Source: Nocardia nova SH22a (GTDB taxonomy: Bacteria; Actinomycetota; Actinomycetes; Mycobacteriales; Mycobacteriaceae). Taken from it: a DNA stretch of 64,000 nt. The position numbers and the translations under genes were made by a program. The stretch spans positions 7,626,001 to 7,690,000 of the forward strand of contig NZ_CP006850.1 of the NCBI RefSeq assembly GCF_000523235.1. The letters are read 5' to 3'. Shown here piece by piece: positions 4,018-12,998 of this stretch. Under the pieces are notes generated by a model. That model searched no databases and had not been told where the DNA came from. It worked only from the letters and a program-made list of their open reading frames with translations. Each line of letters opens with the position of its first letter. Within the stretch, counting starts at the first letter, position 1.

Positions 4018-4671
4018 GTGAATACCACCCATCGCGAGCCCGATGCTCGCCTCGTCGCCGCACTCGCCGGTCCGGAATCGTCGACTCGGCTGCGGGCCGC
4101 TCTGGCGGCCGGTACGGATGGAGACGTCCGGCTGGCGGAGGTCCTGGTGGCCCGATGCGCCGTCGAACCGGACTTCTTCGTACGCGACATGTTGACCTGG
4201 GCTCTGTGCCGAATGCCCGCCGAAGTCACGGTCCCGATGCTGCTCGCGGAACTCGATTCCGGAGTCGCTCAGGCCCGTAGTCAGGCGTTGCACACGCTGT
4301 CCAAGATCGGGGAGCGCAGCGCGTGGCCACAGGTTGCTGGAATGTTGCACGATGCGGACGAGGAGGTCGCGCTCAGCGCCTGGCGGGCCGGTGCGGCGCT
4401 GGTGCCGCCGGGGTCGGAGCCCGTTCTGGCGGCGGAGCTGTCGAAGGAGTTCGGGCGCGGTTCGCATTCGGTTCAGCGCAGCCTGAGCCGGGCACTGGCG
4501 ACGCTGGGAGATGCCGCCGATCCTGTGATCGATGCCGCGGCGGACTCCGCCGATCCGCACATCAGGGCCCATGCCGAGGCGACCCGGCGGTTGCGCCTGG
4601 ATCCCGAGAGTGGGTTCACACTGTCGCTGGAGTTCGCCAAACGTGTCGCCGCCACCGGAACGGACGGTTAG
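4018..4671 (+). CDS. HEAT-repeat protein
   Basis: A 217-residue, all-helical protein built of HEAT-like repeats, recognisable as recurring A-x-x-A-L/D-x-x-V helices (for example near residues 75-105 and 108-140) and DPHIRAHAEATRR near the end. There is no signal peptide, membrane segment or catalytic motif, so it is probably a protein-binding scaffold. GTG at 4018 follows GAAGGAGG (4001-4008). It precedes the MerR-HEAT gene by 34 bases and probably shares its promoter. Confidence 0.7.
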   Translation: MNTTHREPDARLVAALAGPESSTRLRAALAAGTDGDVRLAEVLVARCAVEPDFFVRDMLTWALCRMPAEVTVPMLLAELDSGVAQARSQALHTLSKIGERSAWPQVAGMLHDADEEVALSAWRAGAALVPPGSEPVLAAELSKEFGRGSHSVQRSLSRALATLGDAADPVIDAAADSADPHIRAHAEATRRLRLDPESGFTLSLEFAKRVAATGTDG

Positions 4672-4705
4672 CGGCGAGAAGGTCGATCGGAGAGGAGACG
4701 ATGCG

Positions 4706-5716
4706 ATGTTGATCGGTGAGGTCTCGCGCCGTTCCGGCGTCAGCACTCGCATGCTGCGCCATTACGACCGGCTCGGCCTGGTGCGACCGACCGGCCGCAC
4801 CACCGGCGGGTACCGCGAGTACTCCACCGACGACATCCGTCGTCTCTTCCATGTCGAAAGCCTTCGGACACTGGGACTTTCCCTCGCCGACACCAAGCGG
4901 GCACTCGATGATGCCGACTTCGCGCCCGGCGCCCTGGTAGGCGACCTGATCCGGCACACCCGGGCCCGCATCGCCGCCGAAACCGAACTGCTCGCGAAAC
5001 TCGAGCGGGTGGAATCGGCCGCCCCGGCGCAGTGGGAGGACGTGCTGAACGTCATCACCCTGCTGCGAGCACTCGAATCGAATCTGGGCGATCACCGCCA
5101 GCAGGCAGCCCTGGCCCAGTACGAGGGCGCGGCGCTGCCGGTCGACGCACTGGTGGAGGCGGCGTTGGCGGAAGAGGATCCGAATGTCGCCGGTGCGCTG
5201 CGCTGGGCGCTGGCCCGTGCGGGCGATGCCGGGCTCGCGAACCTGGCCGCAGGGCTGCGATCCCCGGACCCCGATCGCAGGCACCGGGCCACGGTCACCA
5301 TCGCCGAAGTCCCCGGCACACAGGCGACCGCCCTGCTCATCGAGGCCCTGAACGACAGCGCCGTCATCGTGCGGGACCGCGCGGCGCTGGCCTTGGGCGC
5401 CCGGCAGGTGATCGACGCCGTCCCCGCCCTACTGGAAATGATCGTCACCGGACGCACCGATGTCGAAGCAGCCGAACTACTGGGCCTGCTGGCCGAGACC
5501 CCGGACGCCGACATGATCCGAAACCTGCGCCACGAACTCGACATTCGCACCGATCCCGCGGCACGCCTGCGACTCACCCAGGCACTGGCGGAGATTCCGG
5601 GAACGACAGCACAACTCACCGCCTTGACCGAGGACTCCGATCCGGTGATCGCGGGAACGGCGGCCGCCATCCTGCGTACCCGGGAAAGACGGAACCGGCG
5701 CAGCGGTCCGCAGTGA
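4706..5716 (+). CDS. MerR-family regulator fused to HEAT repeats
   Basis: A 336-residue protein. Residues 1-70 are a MerR winged helix (MLIGEVSRRSGVSTRMLRHY, then RLGLVRPTGRTTGGYREYS), followed by a dimerisation helix (about 80-115). From about residue 150 to the end are HEAT-type repeats (for example DPDRRHRATVTIAEVPGTQA and DSAVIVRDRAALALGARQV). Typical MerR proteins are 120-280 residues with a small ligand domain; here a solenoid takes that place. ATG 4706 follows AGAGGAG. Its HEAT part resembles the preceding HEAT protein, suggesting duplication or a physical partnership. Regulation is probably through the dyad at 3967-3985. Confidence 0.8.
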   Translation: MLIGEVSRRSGVSTRMLRHYDRLGLVRPTGRTTGGYREYSTDDIRRLFHVESLRTLGLSLADTKRALDDADFAPGALVGDLIRHTRARIAAETELLAKLERVESAAPAQWEDVLNVITLLRALESNLGDHRQQAALAQYEGAALPVDALVEAALAEEDPNVAGALRWALARAGDAGLANLAAGLRSPDPDRRHRATVTIAEVPGTQATALLIEALNDSAVIVRDRAALALGARQVIDAVPALLEMIVTGRTDVEAAELLGLLAETPDADMIRNLRHELDIRTDPAARLRLTQALAEIPGTTAQLTALTEDSDPVIAGTAAAILRTRERRNRRSGPQ

Positions 5717-5772
5717 ACGTTCCCGTCATCGTCACCGGAACAGCGACCGGAGACAGGCTGGTCGAATCGATC

Positions 5773-5778
5773 TACTCT
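5773..5778 (+). promoter_or_regulatory. -10 box TACTCT of XRE-TPR gene 1 (leaderless type)
   Basis: TACTCT is followed by CGGTGG and ATG 5785. The same 19 bases (ATCGATCTACTCTCGGTGG) precede the second XRE-TPR gene, so the promoter lies within the duplicated block. Confidence 0.55.
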
Positions 5779-5784
5779 CGGTGG

Positions 5785-6945
5785 ATGGGCGAACACGTGG
5801 GGCGGCGGATCGCGTCGGAGCGCAAGATCGCGGGTCTGGGGCAGCGGCAGTTGGCTGCGCGGGCGAATTACTCGTTGTCGATGGTGAAGGCGGTGGAGCA
5901 GGGGCGCGAGGTCGCCTCGCCGGGGTTCGTGTCCGCGGTGGCACGCGCGTTGCACATCACGCCGGAGCAGTTGACGGGGGCACCCTACGACGACGGAAAG
6001 CCCTTGTCCGACGCGGTGAACGGGCTGTCGGTGTTGCTGGCCGAGGGGAGATTCGTCCGTGCCGACGAGCCCGGAACTCTGGCGCAGCTGGAGTCGGATC
6101 TGACTGCGGCGCAGCGGCTTTACCGTCGTGATCGGACGCGGCAAACCATCGAGGTGCTTCCCGATCTGGTTCGCCGACTGCACGGCGCTGTCCGAGAACT
6201 GTCCGGAGACGAACAGGCGCGGGCATACACGCTGCTGACCTCGGCCTACCTACTCGCGGAATGGTCGGTGCGCCGGACAGGCCATATGACGCTGGCGCTT
6301 CCCGCACTGGAATTGGCCGACGGTTACGCCGCATCGGCCGACGATTCGACCTTCGCGCCGTTGTCGAGGTTGGCGCGAGCCCGCGTACTCACGCACTACG
6401 GTGAGTCCGATGTGGCCGCGCGGCTGATCGATTCGGCCGTGGAAGCGGGTGACAGTTCACGCGCGGGGACCGTTCTCGCTGGGTACTCTCATCTCGCCGG
6501 AGCCGTGAACGAGGCTCGGTCACTGAATTACAACGGTGCCATGGCGCATATCGAGTCCGCCCGGGAACTGGCGGCGCGCACCGGTGAAACCGACTTGTAC
6601 ATGACCGCATTCGGACCACTGAATGTCGAAATCCACGCGCATGCAATCGAATTGGAATCCGGCGATCCCAACAAGGCCGCTGTGGAAGGTGCGCGACTCA
6701 CGCACTCGCCGGATGCGCCACCGACGCGAATCGCACACCATTGGCAGGACAATGCGCGGGCGTGGTTGATGTCGGGTAAGCCGGATCGGGCATTGGCGGC
6801 GTTGAACAAGGCGCGGGCCGCGGCCCCGCAGCAGACTCGGTTGCATCCGTCGGTGCGGGAGACGGTGTACGGGATCGCGTCGGTGCAGCGGCGGCAGTCG
6901 GAGGGGTTGTTGGGGTTCGCTTCCTGGCTGGGAGCGGGACTGTAG
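5785..6945 (+). CDS. XRE-family HTH regulator with TPR-like sensor domain (copy 1)
   Basis: A 386-residue protein. Residues 5-48 form a Cro/C1-type HTH (LGQRQLAARANYSLSMVKAV). The rest is helical TPR-like repeats, as in actinobacterial regulators whose TPR domain senses a ligand or peptide. Residues 1-48 and the last 69 are almost identical, also in DNA, to the inverted copy at 11385-12563 (2 of 144 base differences by eye at the 5' end; 1 of 69 residues at the 3' end), while the middle is only distantly related. ATG 5785 is preferred because the shared block and the -10 box sit right before it and upstream residues are unrelated. The target is unknown. Confidence 0.8.
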   Translation: MGEHVGRRIASERKIAGLGQRQLAARANYSLSMVKAVEQGREVASPGFVSAVARALHITPEQLTGAPYDDGKPLSDAVNGLSVLLAEGRFVRADEPGTLAQLESDLTAAQRLYRRDRTRQTIEVLPDLVRRLHGAVRELSGDEQARAYTLLTSAYLLAEWSVRRTGHMTLALPALELADGYAASADDSTFAPLSRLARARVLTHYGESDVAARLIDSAVEAGDSSRAGTVLAGYSHLAGAVNEARSLNYNGAMAHIESARELAARTGETDLYMTAFGPLNVEIHAHAIELESGDPNKAAVEGARLTHSPDAPPTRIAHHWQDNARAWLMSGKPDRALAALNKARAAAPQQTRLHPSVRETVYGIASVQRRQSEGLLGFASWLGAGL

Positions 6946-7012
6946 GTTTTCGTTGGGGGCGAACTACGTCCGGAACAGTTGACCGATCAATCCTGTTCCC
7001 GCCCGGCGGAAT

Positions 7013-7453
7013 TCAGGTGGTCGGTTCGAATGCCTGGGCCACTGCCAGACTGTCCTCGTAGACGTGGTGGCGGGTGATCAGGCCGTCCGTGACTGTGAGG
7101 TGGAGGGCGAAGCGTGCCCGGTACGCGTTGCCGGTGGGGCGCGCGGTCTGCCGAATTTCACCCATTACCACCGCATTCGGGCCATCCACGAGGATGTGTT
7201 CGACGATGGTGCCGACCTCTTCCGGTATGTGGTGATCGGCGATCGTGCGGTAGTGGTCGGCGGGCGTCGGGTGATCGCGGACCCATGGTGTCGCGCTGCG
7301 GCCGTGCTCGGATTCCGGCCAGTTCAGTTTCCAATCGCAGGACGGGGAATACAGTTCGGCGATGGCCTCCGGATCGCCGGAACCGATGCGGGACAGCAGT
7401 TCCTGAACGGTGTGCCGAGTTGTGGTCGTTTCGTCGCTCACGGATGACAACAC
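7013..7453 (-). CDS. SnoaL-like / NTF2-fold polyketide cyclase family protein
   Basis: A protein of about 142-146 residues with the cone-shaped NTF2 fold. The pattern is typical: VQELLSRIGSGDPEAIAELY, a central acidic and Trp-rich part, and a C-terminal strand pair with ARFALHLTVTDGLITRHHVYED. Many such proteins are small hydrolases or isomerases; no specific substrate can be assigned. The start is uncertain between GTG 7453 and GTG 7441, as neither has a good ribosome binding site. It is followed on the same strand by no obvious partner. Confidence 0.65.
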   Translation of the reverse strand: MLSSVSDETTTTRHTVQELLSRIGSGDPEAIAELYSPSCDWKLNWPESEHGRSATPWVRDHPTPADHYRTIADHHIPEEVGTIVEHILVDGPNAVVMGEIRQTARPTGNAYRARFALHLTVTDGLITRHHVYEDSLAVAQAFEPTT

Positions 7454-7529
7454 TGCCTGGGGTGGGTGCAGGGTGTCGATTACCTCCGGGGTAAGGGCGG
7501 GACTGTAGGTGCGCTGGTTGGGGGCCGAA

Positions 7530-7964
7530 TCAATCGTGCACTCCCGGCCGATCCATCGGGAATTCCCGAAATTTCGTAGAGGTTTGCACGGAAAATTCGC
7601 CCGGTGGGCAGAACCAGGAAGTGTTGTCCGGCAGACAGGCGGCCCATGCCTCGTAGTCCGGATCCGGCGGGCAGGCGATCCGGGCGCCGGTATCGAAGGT
7701 GAGGGCGAGTTCCCAGTTGCGGACCTCGGCGGCTGTCACCCGATGGTTCAGCAGAGACAGGACCGGGCCCGCCGTGCGTGGATCGTCTTCGACACGGACC
7801 TCCTGTTCTCCGGTGTCGTCGGTGTACAGGAAATCGGTCAGGTCCACGTAGGCGGCAGGCGCTGTGCCGCCGCCCATGTCGAATACCAAGCGCAGGTAGG
7901 ACTTCCAGACCCAGACTTGTTCGACCTCGAGGCCGTTCAGGGTCGCGAAGTTGGCGATGGTCAC
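7530..7964 (-). CDS. Conserved hypothetical protein (DUF6188-like)
   Basis: A 144-residue soluble protein with alternating beta-strand patterns (VWVWKSYLRLVFDMGG, WELALTFDTGARIACPPDPDY). It looks like the small actinobacterial DUF6188 family, whose members often accompany toxin-immunity or accessory genes; this match is by eye. GTG 7964 starts 13 bases after the stop of the DUF899 gene, so the two are probably one transcript. No catalytic motif was seen. Confidence 0.5.
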   Translation of the reverse strand: MTIANFATLNGLEVEQVWVWKSYLRLVFDMGGGTAPAAYVDLTDFLYTDDTGEQEVRVEDDPRTAGPVLSLLNHRVTAAEVRNWELALTFDTGARIACPPDPDYEAWAACLPDNTSWFCPPGEFSVQTSTKFREFPMDRPGVHD

Positions 7965-7977
7965 GGACGGAGGGTAT

Positions 7978-8646
7978 TCAGTATTCGTCGCGCTTGCGGG
8001 GCCAGTTGTCGAAATTGTCGCCCCGGCCGTTCGGGGCGCGGTCGAGTAGTTGCCAGGTCGCGTTGAGGGCATCGGTGCCGCGATCGTAGGTCGAATACGT
8101 GTGATAGACCTGCCCGTCGGCGAGGGCGAAACTGCTCAATGCCATCAGTTCCATGACATCGAGCATGTCGCCCGGCGGGCGTTTCACGCTCGACGTGCGC
8201 ATGATTTCGTAGAAATCCTCGTTGAAGCCGTTGTCGCCCATGGAAACCCATTCGATGTCCCAGCCGAAGCGGCTCTTGTAGTCGTTGAGCGTGGGCAGCG
8301 GTGAACGTGAGGCCAGGATGAAGGTGACGTCGCGGTGGGCCAGATGCGGGACCGCGCCGACCAGATTGTCGGTCTCGAAGGTGCAGCCGGGGCAGCCCTC
8401 CGGCGTCTTCGGACCGTGCATGAAATGGCGGATGATCAGCTGCGAACGGCCGTCGAACAGTTCGGGGAGGGTTTTGACGCCCGCGTTGGTGTCGAAGCGA
8501 TACTCCTTGGTGACCGGCACCCAGGGCAGAGCCTGACGCTCGCGGGCCAGGGCGTCGCCGCGCCTGGTCAGTTCCTTCTCCTGGGTGCGCAGATCCTCGT
8601 ACGCGCTCCGCCATTGTTCCCGGGTGCCGACTTCGTGTGCGGGCAT
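7978..8646 (-). CDS. DUF899 family thioredoxin-like protein
   Basis: A 222-residue member of DUF899, a thioredoxin-fold family of unknown chemistry. Typical features are an N-terminal helical region with VTKEYRFDTNAG, the motif FMHGPKTPEGCPGCTFE (CPGC in the redox position), the DVTFILASRSPL strand, and the C-terminal DRAPNGRGDNFDNWPRKRDEY signature. ATG 8646 follows GAAAGGAC. The next 260 bases toward plsC hold no gene. A dithiol role is inferred from the fold. Confidence 0.8.
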   Translation of the reverse strand: MPAHEVGTREQWRSAYEDLRTQEKELTRRGDALARERQALPWVPVTKEYRFDTNAGVKTLPELFDGRSQLIIRHFMHGPKTPEGCPGCTFETDNLVGAVPHLAHRDVTFILASRSPLPTLNDYKSRFGWDIEWVSMGDNGFNEDFYEIMRTSSVKRPPGDMLDVMELMALSSFALADGQVYHTYSTYDRGTDALNATWQLLDRAPNGRGDNFDNWPRKRDEY

Positions 8647-8906
8647 GGTCGTCCTTTCGCGGTCGGTCGCTCTATACGTAGGACGGCGCGGGCGGGCGGA
8701 AATCATCGGTGGGCTCGGTCGCGCGCCGTCGGCGTGCGGTGTGGAGCCGGGTTGCCGACGCACGCGGCCGGTCGGTGCGTCCGAGGCGATCGGGATGTGT
8801 GGATCGGCTGGGCGGTGCGGTCGCAGCGTGGGAGTTCGGGAGCAGAACTTGTCGGTGGTGGATGGGAAGATGGGAGTCGTTCCGGACACACTCTGGGGGG
8901 GTACGA

Positions 8907-9578
8907 ATGAGCGAGCGGGAACGTCCACGGGCCGATCGGCCCAAGGGGCTGGGTAAGCGGGCATGGCTCACCACCAAGTTCGTGCGGCGCATTCTGCGCA
9001 CCCTGGCATGGTCGAATTTCGTGCACGTCACGGTGGTCGGCCGAGAGTTGGTGCCGAAATCCGGTCCGGTGATCGTGGCGAGTAATCACATCTCGATGCT
9101 GGACGCGGTCTTCCTGTGGGGTGCGTTGCGGCGCAGGGCGATCGCCATCGCGATGGCCGAACTGTGGTCGTGGCCCGTGGTGGGGTGGCTGGTCCGACGG
9201 CTGGGGCACATTCCGGTGGTGCGGCGCGACAACGCGTCGGGGCAGTCGGCGATGGCGCAGGCGGAGCAGATCCTGCGGTACGACGGCGTCCTGATCATCT
9301 ATCCCGAGGGCCGATTGGTGTCGGAGGGCGAGCACGAGCCCTACAAACCGGGCGTCGCGAAACTCGCGCTGGCGACCGGGGTTCCGATCATTCCGGTGGG
9401 TACCACGGGAACGGACCGGGTGCTGCCGTTGAAACGCAATCGGGGCGACGGACCGGCCTTCGATCGGCGCCAGCGGGTGACCATCCACTTCGGCACACCC
9501 GTCGACCCCGCCGAATTCGACGATCCGGACAAGTTACTCGACCATCTACGGGAGCGCATCGAGGAGCTGCGGACGTGA
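8907..9578 (+). CDS. 1-acyl-sn-glycerol-3-phosphate acyltransferase family protein (PlsC-like)
   Basis: A 223-residue acyltransferase that transfers acyl-CoA or acyl-ACP chains to lysophospholipid-type acceptors at the membrane. Motif I NHISMLD (NHx4D, about residue 58) holds the catalytic His/Asp, and motif III YPEGRLV (about 133) is the FPEG acceptor-binding box. PIIPVGTTGTDR follows (motif IV). The N-terminus is basic. ATG 8907 has only a G-rich stretch upstream. Confidence 0.82.
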   Translation: MSERERPRADRPKGLGKRAWLTTKFVRRILRTLAWSNFVHVTVVGRELVPKSGPVIVASNHISMLDAVFLWGALRRRAIAIAMAELWSWPVVGWLVRRLGHIPVVRRDNASGQSAMAQAEQILRYDGVLIIYPEGRLVSEGEHEPYKPGVAKLALATGVPIIPVGTTGTDRVLPLKRNRGDGPAFDRRQRVTIHFGTPVDPAEFDDPDKLLDHLRERIEELRT

Positions 9579-9665
9579 GCGGCCGAGTGCGCCGGGCTCT
9601 CGCTGCGGTCCGGGCCCGTACGGTCGGGGCATGCGAATATCCGGCTCGACGCGGAGGAAACTGTC

Positions 9666-10310
9666 GTGACCTCGGAATACATCTGGTATGCGGCCTACGG
9701 CTCCAATCTGTTCGAGCGGCGGTTCACCTACTACCGCGAAGGTGGGAATCCGCCCGGAACATCGCGGGTCTATCCCGGATTCCGGGATCGCACACCGCCG
9801 CCTCGGAGCCGGCCGCTGTCCCTGCCCGGATGTATCTATTTCGCCTGGGAGAGCCCGGTGTGGACGGGCGGGGTCGCGTTCTACGCGCACCGGCCGCCGC
9901 CGTCGTGGCCGGTGGGCGCCGCCGCCCGGGGATATCTGCTGACCGTCGAACAGTTCCGCGATCTGATGGCCCAGGAGATGCACCGACAGCCGGGCGAGGT
10001 GGACGAATTCGATCCGGCGGAGGTCGTGCGCCGGGGCGTGTTGCAGTTGGGGGACGGACATTACGAAACCCTCTGGCATGTGGACGATCTCGACGGTTGT
10101 CCGGTGCTGACCTTCAGTTCACCCTGGGACCCGCACGCCATCGGGCTGAACCGGCCGTCGGCTCACTATCTGAGCATGCTCGCCGCCGGTCTGGCGGAAT
10201 CGCACGACTGGTCACCGGCGGAGATCGTTCGCTATCTGTCCGAACGTCCGGGCGTACAGGGAAATTGGGATCCGGAAGAACTCGGCGACGTGGTCGGCGC
10301 CCACGGGTGA
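9666..10310 (+). CDS. Gamma-glutamylcyclotransferase-like protein
   Basis: A 214-residue protein starting with WYAAYGSNL, the signature loop of the GGCT/AIG2 (BtrG-like) fold that binds the gamma-glutamyl moiety. A ladder of strands follows (GCIYFAWESPVWTGGVAFY). Such proteins are sometimes mis-labelled histone deacetylase in actinobacterial genomes. A catalytic Glu cannot be fixed by eye. GTG 9666 follows GAGGAAA. The substrate is unknown. Confidence 0.65.
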   Translation: MTSEYIWYAAYGSNLFERRFTYYREGGNPPGTSRVYPGFRDRTPPPRSRPLSLPGCIYFAWESPVWTGGVAFYAHRPPPSWPVGAAARGYLLTVEQFRDLMAQEMHRQPGEVDEFDPAEVVRRGVLQLGDGHYETLWHVDDLDGCPVLTFSSPWDPHAIGLNRPSAHYLSMLAAGLAESHDWSPAEIVRYLSERPGVQGNWDPEELGDVVGAHG

Positions 10311-10326
10311 GTGCGGCTTCCGGGCC

Positions 10327-11238
10327 TCAGGCCGCGTTCAGGCGATCGAGCAGCCAGGGCCGCAGGGACGGTCCGTAGTCGTCGGAGTCGAGCGCGAAAT
10401 CGACTGCGGCACGCAGATATCCGGCCGGATTGCCGATGTCGTGACGAGTGCCGCGATGGACCACGATGTGCACCGGATGTCCCTGCGCGATGAGCAGATC
10501 CACGGCATCGGTCAGCTGCAGTTCACCACCTGCGCCCGGCTCGATTCGTCGCAGCGCGTCGAACACGGCACGGTCCAGCAGGTAGCGGCCCGCGGCGGCC
10601 AGCCGCGAGGGCGCCGTGCCCGCCTCGGGCTTCTCCACCATCGCCTCGACCCGCAGCACATCGGGATCCGGATCGGAGGTCGCGGTGACATCGAAGATGC
10701 CGTAGGCGCTCACCTCGTGCTCGGCTACCTCGATCGCGCACAGGACACTGCCGCCCCAGCGCTGCCGCACCCGCGCCATCGCGTCCAAAACCCCGTGCGG
10801 GAGTATCAGATCATCGGGCAACAGGACGGCCACGGCGTTCTCGTCCGCGTCCAAGGCCGGTTCCGCCTGGAGCACCGCATGGCCGAGCCCCAGCGGCTGC
10901 TGCTGGACGACGGTACCGACCTCCAGGAGTTTCGACGCGTTGCGCACCTTGTCGAGCTGAGCGAACTTCCCACGCTGGGCGAGTGCGTTCTCGAGTACCG
11001 GATCCTCCTCGAAATACGCTGCCAGACCCGGCTTTCCGGGCGAGGTCACGAGGATCATCCGATCGGCACCTGCGTGCGCGGCCTCCTCGGCGACCAGTTC
11101 GATGCCGGGTGTGTCGAGTACCGGCAGCAGTTCCTTCGGCACGGTCTTGGTGGCGGGGAGGAAGCGGGTGCCCAGACCTGCGGCGGGCACCACGGCGGTG
11201 CGGAACTGGCGCGGGATATCCAGGGTGGCGGGTGCCAT
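10327..11238 (-). CDS. galU: UTP-glucose-1-phosphate uridylyltransferase
   Basis: A 303-residue nucleotidyltransferase that makes UDP-glucose from UTP and glucose-1-phosphate for cell-envelope glycans and trehalose. The signature GLGTRFLPATKTVPKELLPV sits at residues 21-40, with VVQQQPLGLGHAVL, LLPDDLI (metal-binding Asp) and VEKP further on. The length is normal. ATG 11238 follows AAGGAG. It stands alone on its strand; a 146-base gap separates it from XRE-TPR copy 2. Confidence 0.9.
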   Translation of the reverse strand: MAPATLDIPRQFRTAVVPAAGLGTRFLPATKTVPKELLPVLDTPGIELVAEEAAHAGADRMILVTSPGKPGLAAYFEEDPVLENALAQRGKFAQLDKVRNASKLLEVGTVVQQQPLGLGHAVLQAEPALDADENAVAVLLPDDLILPHGVLDAMARVRQRWGGSVLCAIEVAEHEVSAYGIFDVTATSDPDPDVLRVEAMVEKPEAGTAPSRLAAAGRYLLDRAVFDALRRIEPGAGGELQLTDAVDLLIAQGHPVHIVVHRGTRHDIGNPAGYLRAAVDFALDSDDYGPSLRPWLLDRLNAA

Positions 11239-11384
11239 GTCGATACTCCTTCGTCGTCGGATGTCGTGGCGGGTCAGGCCCGACGAAGACGACGGTAGGA
11301 AGCCGATATCGGCGCCGCGTTGGTGCGACCTGCGAATTTCATGGGAATGCGCGCGGTTCGCCCGAACCTTCGGGCCGGGCGGCC

Positions 11385-12563
11385 CTACAGTCCCGCTCCC
11401 AGCCAGGAAGCAAACCCCAACAACCCCTCCGACTGCCGCCGCTGCACCGCCGCGATCCCGTACACCGTCTCCCGCACCGACGGATGCAACCGAGTCTGCT
11501 GCGGCGCCGCGGCCCGCGCCTTGTTCAACGCCGCCAACGCCCGATCCGGCTTACCCGACATCAACCACGCCCGCGCATTGTCCTGCCAATGGTGACCCGC
11601 ACGCGGAGCGGCGAGGTCGACCGGCATGCGCAAGTCGGCGCCGTCGCGAGCGGCCTTGCCCGGGTCGCCCGCTTCCAATTCGACCGCACAGGAATGTATT
11701 TCGACATTGCCGGGACCGAAATCGGTGGTGTACAACATGCTCTCGCCGGTCATCGGCCGCGCGATCTCTCGTGCCGCCGCGATGTGGTCTCGCGCGAGTT
11801 CCAGCCGACGCCCCCGCGCCGCGACGATGGCAGCCCGCAAATGCCCGTACCCTCGCAGGACCTGTTCGCCGTCACTGCTTCCCGGTACCAGCGACAGGCC
11901 GCGCTCGACCAATGACATTGCCACATCGGTCGATCCGTGCGTCATGAGCAGTCGCGAACGTTTCATGAGGCTGCGCACCGCGTAACCCGGATCCTCCGAA
12001 CGCGCGGCAACGGTGTCGAGCCGATCGAGCACCAGCGCCGTCAACGAGGAATATCCGAGGCGGCAGCAGGCTCCCTCCGCCGCGATGTAGGCCGCGCACA
12101 GCATGTCGTCGGCCCGGATGCGTTCCGCCTCATCGCCCGCGTCCTCGACCGCGCCGTGCAACCGGCGAATCAGGTTGGGCAACAGGGCAAGAGCACGACG
12201 CGTCCGGTCATTGTGCAGCGCATCTTCGACCGCGACCAGTTCCGCGCGCAAGTCCGCCACGGTCGGCGGTTCGAGCGCTTGTACGTACGCTCCCTCCGCC
12301 AGCACGGCACGCAATTCGGACAGCCCTTCGAGCGGGCCGTCCTCCTCGAGGGTGTCCAGATATGGCGTGCCCTGCAACCGGTCCGGATCGACGCCCAGCA
12401 CCTTCGACACCGCCGCGATGAACCCCGGCGAGGCGACCTCGCGCCCCTGCTCCACCGCCTTCACCATCGACAACGAATAATTCGCCCGCGCAGCCAACTG
12501 CCGCTGCCCCAGACCCGCGATCTTGCGCTCCGACGCAATCCGCCGCCCCACGTGTTCGCCCAT
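11385..12563 (-). CDS. XRE-family HTH regulator with TPR-like sensor domain (copy 2)
   Basis: A 392-residue paralogue of the gene at 5785-6945, in opposite orientation. Residues 1-48 are the identical HTH and the last 69 residues differ from copy 1 at one position. The middle (about residues 49-320) is divergent, with its own helical repeats and a longer linker. ATG 12563 lies 6 bases after a TACTCT box. It is divergent from a small gene pair at 12666-13147 that it may control. The ends look homogenised by recombination or gene conversion. Confidence 0.8.
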   Translation of the reverse strand: MGEHVGRRIASERKIAGLGQRQLAARANYSLSMVKAVEQGREVASPGFIAAVSKVLGVDPDRLQGTPYLDTLEEDGPLEGLSELRAVLAEGAYVQALEPPTVADLRAELVAVEDALHNDRTRRALALLPNLIRRLHGAVEDAGDEAERIRADDMLCAAYIAAEGACCRLGYSSLTALVLDRLDTVAARSEDPGYAVRSLMKRSRLLMTHGSTDVAMSLVERGLSLVPGSSDGEQVLRGYGHLRAAIVAARGRRLELARDHIAAAREIARPMTGESMLYTTDFGPGNVEIHSCAVELEAGDPGKAARDGADLRMPVDLAAPRAGHHWQDNARAWLMSGKPDRALAALNKARAAAPQQTRLHPSVRETVYGIAAVQRRQSEGLLGFASWLGAGL

Positions 12564-12569
12564 CCACCG

Positions 12570-12575
12570 AGAGTA
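12570..12575 (-). promoter_or_regulatory. -10 box TACTCT of XRE-TPR gene 2 (leaderless type)
   Basis: Minus-strand TACTCT-CGGTGG-ATG(12563), identical to the promoter of copy 1. Confidence 0.55.
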
Positions 12576-12665
12576 GATCGATACCGCGCCGCTGTCCCCC
12601 TGTCCCTTCACTGTTCTTCGGTGCCCTCACCTGCATCGAATCTGGGATATACACAGAGGAGGGGC

Positions 12666-12998
12666 ATGATGAGAGCACATCCGACAGCGCTGGCGTGGAT
12701 AGATCCCGAGATCAGCACCGCACCGGACTGGGAAGCGGCGCAGATCGCGCGCCTGGCCAGACATCTCGGATATGCCCTCACCTGGCCGGTGGTGACGCGG
12801 ACGGTTCCGCTGATCGACCAGATCAGGTCCGCCGACATCGACGCGCTCGTTCTGCCCGCGCCGAACCATCTCGACGCCTTGACGCTCAACCTCGCCATGC
12901 ACCTGGTCGATGTCGAAACCGTCTGTCCGCGAATGTCGTTCGCACGGTGGCGCGCGATCGACGTAGGGGCGCGCGACGCACGGCCCGCGCCGCGATGA
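12666..12998 (+). CDS. Small recombinase-like hypothetical protein
   Basis: A 110-residue protein with IARLARHLGYALTWP, then an alpha/beta half resembling the start of a serine-recombinase catalytic fold (IDQIRSADIDALVLPAPNHLD). The nucleophilic Ser and the rest of the domain are missing, so recombinase activity is unlikely. Small proteins of this look occur beside HTH regulators in actinobacteria; this is from memory and uncertain. ATG 12666 or 12669 follows AGAGGAGGGG. The stop overlaps the next start. Confidence 0.45.
   Translation: MMRAHPTALAWIDPEISTAPDWEAAQIARLARHLGYALTWPVVTRTVPLIDQIRSADIDALVLPAPNHLDALTLNLAMHLVDVETVCPRMSFARWRAIDVGARDARPAPR

Follow-up and report, generated by a model that had tools for sequence, protein, structure and literature searches.

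How can two regulatory genes of one genome be almost identical in DNA at both ends and only distantly alike in between? The question is raised by a stretch of 64,000 nucleotides (the window) from Nocardia nova SH22a (NCBI RefSeq assembly GCF_000523235.1, contig NZ_CP006850.1, positions 7,626,001 to 7,690,000), in which two genes for XRE-TPR regulators, here called XA and XB, face opposite ways (Table 1). We consider it likely that both belong to one Nocardia regulator family with a common helix-turn-helix (HTH) DNA-binding end and TPR sensors that are exchanged when the ends undergo homologous recombination. The recombination is well supported, and the middle would act as the sensor.

Two inverted regulators with near-identical ends

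Alignment together with a repeat search confirmed what the first-pass annotation had described for the inverted genes XA and XB, namely near-identical ends and diverged middles. The 5' blocks extend over 163 bp with 2 mismatches and lie in inverted orientation. The 3' blocks, 211 nt at 98% identity and likewise inverted, end 1 base beyond the stop codon, and their arms are 4437 nt apart. Between the blocks, the middles align over 263 residues with 42% amino-acid and 52% nucleotide identity. The promoter, which the annotation had also taken to be near-identical, is so for only the 19 nt before the ATG, including a -10 box; further upstream the A-type and B-type sequences differ.

Matches to HTH_31 and HTH_3 above the Pfam cut-offs place an N-terminal Cro/C1-type HTH domain in both proteins; TPR_2 in XB lay below its cut-off. 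The AlphaFold model of XA (mean predicted local distance difference test score, pLDDT, 90.1) has HTH helices at residues 5-15, 20-27 and 31-38 and then a helical TPR-like solenoid, the architecture of an XRE-TPR regulator. A sequence search against solved structures matched HTH domains only. The end blocks were also sought elsewhere in the genome (8.35 Mb, one contig), and the DNA searches found them only at XA and XB. No other XRE-TPR paralogue of the genome exceeds 40% identity in a partial alignment, and along the full length the identity is 24-26%.

The ends are homogenised beyond what protein constraint explains

Four-fold degenerate sites were counted only at codons where both genes have the same first two bases. 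Between XA and XB they agree at 29/29 sites in the N block, 32/66 in the middle and 37/39 in the C block, which makes 66/68 for the ends together (ends versus middle, Fisher p = 3e-11). At these sites the middle is thus saturated and the ends are nearly fresh. When the same blocks of the window were compared with N. veterana, the agreement was 0.63-0.67 for either gene, and with the N. nova group it was about 0.3-0.7. The first-pass annotation had named uniform divergence along the alignment, or constraint on the ends, as findings that would speak against exchange. Divergence is not uniform, and because the four-fold sites separate ends from middle in this way, protein constraint does not account for the near-identical ends.

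The same pattern was observed in other genomes. The tandem A/B pair of N. veterana (G103) agrees at 64/66 four-fold sites in the ends and 30/73 in the middles; a tandem pair of other types in genome G142 reaches 0.93 in the C block and 0.33 in the middle, and a pair in G031 0.76 and 0.38. Across 26 within-genome pairs (83 genes), a C-block agreement of at least 0.76 was found in 4/6 linked pairs, compared to 0/20 pairs at separate loci. Homogenisation of the ends has therefore taken place between neighbouring copies, and it has done so in separate lineages. A codon-permutation test on 16 within-genome pairs gave p = 0.0005 (its floor) in 8, 0.0025-0.05 in 7 and 0.28 in 1; this test also responds to conserved codons, and we therefore relied on the four-fold sites.

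One chromosomal place carries either middle type in sister species

We then considered the distribution of the two middles. Relatives at E <=1e-60 were found by protein search in 69/150 genomes of the genus. The 83 full-length genes comprise 36 of A-type (35 genomes), 25 of B-type (25 genomes) and 22 of neither, with cut-offs of 64% identity to XA for A and 69% to XB for B. These are 83 of 90 rows, after L071 747-1937, a distant paralogue, had been dropped together with six genes that were short or broken (L075, L076, two in L077, two in L079); six listed places (G030:C44, G045, G117, G036:C2, G094, G085) are not among the compared loci. Both types occur together in 7 genomes (the window genome G000, G031, G087, G090, G103, G129 and G142). 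In a family-level sample of 301 genomes from 31 genera, relatives at E <=1e-40 were found in 23 genomes, all of one genus. A and B are two old types of middle that occur across Nocardia.

Among copies elsewhere in the genus, interrupted or shortened A-type genes were seen in G005, G034, G137 and G141 (L079, L077, L075 and L076); some lineages can dispense with the gene. In G033, an A-type gene faces a gene of another type at a distance of 266 bp (L071 4075-6673), and their ends are not homogenised.

Eleven relatives carry the gene at the same chromosomal place, with a SnoaL-like gene 3' and a small divergent gene 5' where each was found. A single B is present there in N. africana (G037), N. 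kruczakiae (G078), N. aobensis (G035), N. vermiculata (G010), N. nova NBRC 15556 (G133) and G079, a single A in N. cerradoensis (G002), N. mikamii (G102), N. nova MDA0897 (G056) and N. elegans NBRC 108235 (G148), and both types in tandem in N. veterana. The B gene of N. nova NBRC 15556 and the A gene of N. elegans share 97% identity over the N block and 98% over the C block, and 55% over the middle; their flanking genes are 97.6% identical (3378 sites), and the drop in identity spans about 780 bp. Similarly, N. cerradoensis (A) and N. aobensis (B) show 97, 53 and 93% for N block, middle and C block, with flanks at 95.8%. Between G133 and G148, 1.2 kb upstream and 1.5 kb downstream stay mostly at 85-100% (lowest 78-80%, in 60-bp windows), and no type-linked signal gene was seen there.

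Trees of 61 genes agree with an exchange of the middle. The middle tree requires 1 type change, the ends tree 15, of which 7 are forced by branches with support >=95, and the N block and C block alone give 13 and 18. The ends tree also places XA together with XB. On a tree of the flanks of the ten single-copy genomes of the clade, in which 4/9 inner branches are well supported, at least 4 type changes are required. Ends and flanks go with the species, and the middle has thus been replaced as a unit at this place, four times or more within a small clade. The exchange that the first-pass annotation had suspected is hence seen in two forms, as homogenised four-fold sites in the ends of the window genome and separately of N. 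veterana, and as a middle swapped as a unit in relatives.

Table 1. Features of the XA/XB locus (positions in the window).
Feature	Position	Strand	Basis and remarks
XA, A-type XRE-TPR regulator, 386 aa	5785-6945	+	intact open reading frame (ORF); HTH_31 E 4e-10
XB, B-type XRE-TPR regulator, 392 aa	11385-12563	-	intact ORF, ATG at 12563; HTH_31 E 1.5e-10
XA 5' end block	5766-5928	+	-10 box, codons 1-48, HTH helices 1-3 including the recognition helix
XB 5' end block	12420-12582	-	alignment and repeat search
A-type middle, with the remainder of the HTH domain and a putative TPR sensor	5929-6735	+	protein identity, four-fold sites
B-type middle	11595-12419	-	alignment, four-fold sites
XA 3' end block, last 69-70 codons, C-terminal helices	6736-6946	+	inverted repeat I1
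XB 3' end block	11384-11594	-	inverted repeat
TACTCT, resembling a -10 box, 6 nt ahead of the XA start codon	5773-5778	+	sequence
Putative XB operator of ACAG-type direct repeats, upstream of the gene	12592-12613	-	sole exact match in the genome to CAGNNNAGGGACAGNNNGACAG
Small gene, 110 aa, divergent from XB	12666-12998	+	family often adjoins HTH regulators
Segment SnoaL-like / unknown / DUF899 / acyltransferase / 214-aa protein	7013-10310		inverted relative to relatives; gene order of 11 relatives, Pfam
Extra nucleotidyltransferase, galU-like	10327-11238	-	NTP_transferase (Pfam); between inverted segment and XB

A proposed model of sensor exchange

The sequences show that homologous recombination between copies of the same genome, by gene conversion or crossover, keeps the DNA-binding and C-terminal ends alike, and that the middles, too diverged to recombine, persist as the two old types. 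In the explanation that we favour, recombination through the common ends would also replace the middle as a cassette, while the ends remain alike. The replacing middle may come from incoming DNA or from the collapse of tandem pairs such as that of N. veterana; the data fit either source. Since the common 5' block contains the recognition helix and the TPR solenoid makes up the middle, an exchange of the middle would alter what is sensed and have no effect on DNA binding. The probable targets of the regulators are ACAG-type direct repeats, which recur upstream of 54/61 A/B genes, before their own gene and, at XB, before the divergent small gene. The window genome holds both types, as an inverted pair flanking a segment that is inverted relative to its relatives.

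Several observations weigh against this explanation or narrow it. The linked pairs of G090 and G033 are not homogenised (C block 0.47 and 0.38), and the pair of G129, on different contigs, is partly so (0.66). The 15 type changes of the ends tree, which was built on 357 columns and leaves 20/58 branches open, compare with a shuffled mean of 19.6, and a count as low was reached in only 6-10 of 500 shuffles; types are not random over the genus, and deeper clades tend to keep their type. The neighbouring genes are alike in both types, and a linked, type-specific signal gene was thus not seen. The predicted structure covers XA and not XB. Moreover, because the repeats upstream of XA are degenerate, the regulation of XA may differ from that of XB. 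Pattern searches of the genome gave no evidence for a wider regulon: GGRCAG-N5-GGRCAG gave 11 matches versus 5 for the reversed control, none of them at the XA or XB promoter, and the three-repeat pattern with <=2 mismatches gave 7 versus 7, its sole exact match being at XB, so that nothing beyond XB stood above the control.

Alternative explanations and the inverted segment

The alternative that survives best, possible although clearly less probable than the model above, is that an ancestral tandem B-A pair collapsed differentially: in every single-copy species, recombination between the ends of the tandem copies would have removed one type without any import of DNA, and gene conversion would have kept the ends alike. 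Tandem B-then-A pairs do exist in N. veterana, G031 and G090, and the neighbours expected after a collapse, the small divergent gene upstream and the SnoaL-like gene downstream, flank single-copy genes of either type. However, a tandem pair was found in 0/8 genomes of the N. nova subclade, despite at least three sister A/B contrasts there, and the spacer before XA in N. veterana carries, as judged by eye, a remnant of the small-gene start, as if B had been inserted ahead of a native A.

The inverted arrangement in the window raises a further question, namely whether the end blocks served to invert the DNA between them. With the outer genes set in the same orientation (merR-HEAT where present; not every gene occurs in every relative), the relatives' order is merR-HEAT(+), 214-aa(-), acyltransferase(-), DUF899(+), SnoaL-like(+), X(-), small gene(+), X being the regulator gene. 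The order in the window is merR-HEAT(+), XA(+), SnoaL-like(-), DUF899(-), acyltransferase(+), 214-aa(+), galU(-), XB(-), small gene(+). The inversion that the first-pass annotation had envisaged is partly supported: the interior is inverted relative to 10/10 relatives in which it can be oriented by a gene beyond it (the G056 sequence stops within the SnoaL-like gene). The order would be expected from a crossover between inverted copies, had an X gene and galU been inserted beside merR-HEAT, but a tandem pair followed by a non-homologous inversion can yield it as well. Inversion through the end blocks is thus one of two possible routes, and the one assembly shows a single arrangement. An early reading, in which the breakpoints (merR-HEAT/214-aa gene; XA 5'/XB 3') did not fit the end blocks, was dropped, since an inserted X-galU and a crossover in either the 3' or the 5' block gives the same order. 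The XA-SnoaL and galU-XB spacers had no convincing match in relatives and favoured neither route; the 50 bp preceding XA are similar to other X promoters (82% over 35 bp).

The annotation had further proposed that recombination in either block would swap the sensors between promoters. This does not hold for the 3' block, where a crossover would leave each sensor behind its own promoter and exchange only the last codons and the downstream flanks; sensors are exchanged between promoters only by a crossover in the 5' block. This bears on the idea of an active switch, in which the inverted end blocks recombine often and single cells carry XA behind one or the other promoter. We regard such a switch as unlikely. 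Near-identical inverted blocks, an interior inverted relative to all orientable relatives and different upstream regions of XA and XB speak for it, but only the 5' block could switch sensors, one assembly shows one arrangement, and other genomes with both types do not share the inverted arrangement. Blocks as short as these should seldom undergo homologous recombination, which also counts against it. No recombinase was among the Pfam matches of five proteins between the repeats, a scan that did not include the ORF at 7530-8072.

Two further alternatives can be dismissed. Strong purifying selection as the sole cause of the alike ends, without any exchange, fits their better conservation between species at the protein level. 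It is highly improbable given the four-fold sites, far more alike between XA and XB than between the window and its relatives, and the grouping of XA with XB on the ends tree, unless synonymous sites were constrained in a single lineage. A recent duplication, after which one middle changed rapidly under adaptation, would equally produce near-identical ends, but there is hardly any room for it, as the A and B middles have relatives in many species and each fall on one side of a branch, in a tree that refutes recent duplication, and their four-fold sites are saturated.

Comparison with known systems

The RRNPP regulators of Firmicutes and their phages (Rgg, Rap, NprR, PlcR, AimR, ComR) have an HTH followed by a TPR solenoid, a layout that XA and XB may share; among solved structures, the sequence search matched HTH domains only. 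The activity of RRNPP regulators is set by a cognate secreted peptide; no peptide is known for XA and XB, though small pro-peptide genes were not searched for systematically. The passages of PMC6703854 on ScuR and SarF of Streptococcus salivarius describe proteins that are 82% identical and diverge in three stretches, one of which overlaps the peptide pocket, and discuss common DNA-binding domains among the ComR/ScuR/SarF paralogues. Unlike ScuR and SarF, XA and XB share only 42% of their middle, have ends homogenised by recombination, and belong to types that alternate at one locus in sister species.

Pherotype polymorphisms, such as comQXPA of Bacillus and comC/comD of Streptococcus (PMC4408185, PMC5629823), share with A and B that closely related bacteria keep separate specificity types at a single locus. 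Pherotypes swap a signal and a membrane receptor jointly, whereas the A/B exchange swaps the middle of one cytoplasmic regulator whose neighbours are not type-linked. What sets the A/B exchange apart from both RRNPP paralogues and pherotypes is that it is confined to the middle of a single cytoplasmic regulator, with no linked partner.

A tentative and rather doubtful extension is that A and B are pherotype-like signal-specificity alleles of an intracellular HTH-TPR receptor under balancing selection across Nocardia, which the window genome would link by an invertible segment. If so, lineages could switch the signal that they obey without rewiring their targets, as operator reading would stay fixed. 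The exchange of sensor domains is generally deduced from deep protein families, and this locus reveals it between sister species whose flanks are about 97% identical; no report of such an exchange was found in the open-access literature searched. The locus offers a natural experiment, with the same DNA-binding end and position and two sensors, which are also found together in some genomes. It could reveal what actinobacterial HTH-TPR regulators sense, and whether selection maintains two specificities.

Promoters and neighbouring genes

The distance of the -10-like box from the ATG is 6 nt in 50/61 and 7 nt in 9/61 A/B genes, and the XA transcript may be leaderless. The protein of the small divergent gene at 12666-12998 matched no Pfam family above the cut-off, DUF397 included; its best E value, to other families, was 0.12. 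Its family has 16 matches in the genome, mostly next to divergent HTH regulators, and a divergent small gene lies beside at least 26/83 A, B or other X genes, a lower bound that misses those of the window and of G079. Passages on the XRE-DUF397 and WhiJ-BldB modules of Streptomyces describe multi-copy XRE regulators beside small-protein paralogues (PMC6262351, PMC10364602), and WhiJ9 is described as binding direct repeats in a divergent intergenic region (PMC10294661). X regulators likewise adjoin small-protein paralogues, and the family may by analogy be the Nocardia counterpart of these modules. The pair here departs from the XRE-DUF397 pair in that the small protein lacks a DUF397 match, its gene lies divergently instead of downstream, and the middle of the XRE protein is of TPR type. 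Sensor swapping of this kind does not appear in the passages of these three sources.

The galU-like gene was probably acquired. A second copy at G000:C1:7286513 is 74% identical to it, and relatives have that copy too; one copy elsewhere was found in 7/7 relatives searched, compared to two in the window genome, and galU stood beside X at no other locus among the X loci compared.

Upstream of XA, positions 4018-5716 contain a gene resembling HEAT repeats and, after it, an ORF that is MerR-like at its start and HEAT-like in the remainder, both named by eye. Finally, a 71-bp repeat occurs at 709-764, 1569-1639 and 1640-1710, as two direct copies and one inverted; with 34 matches in the genome, it is a dispersed element.
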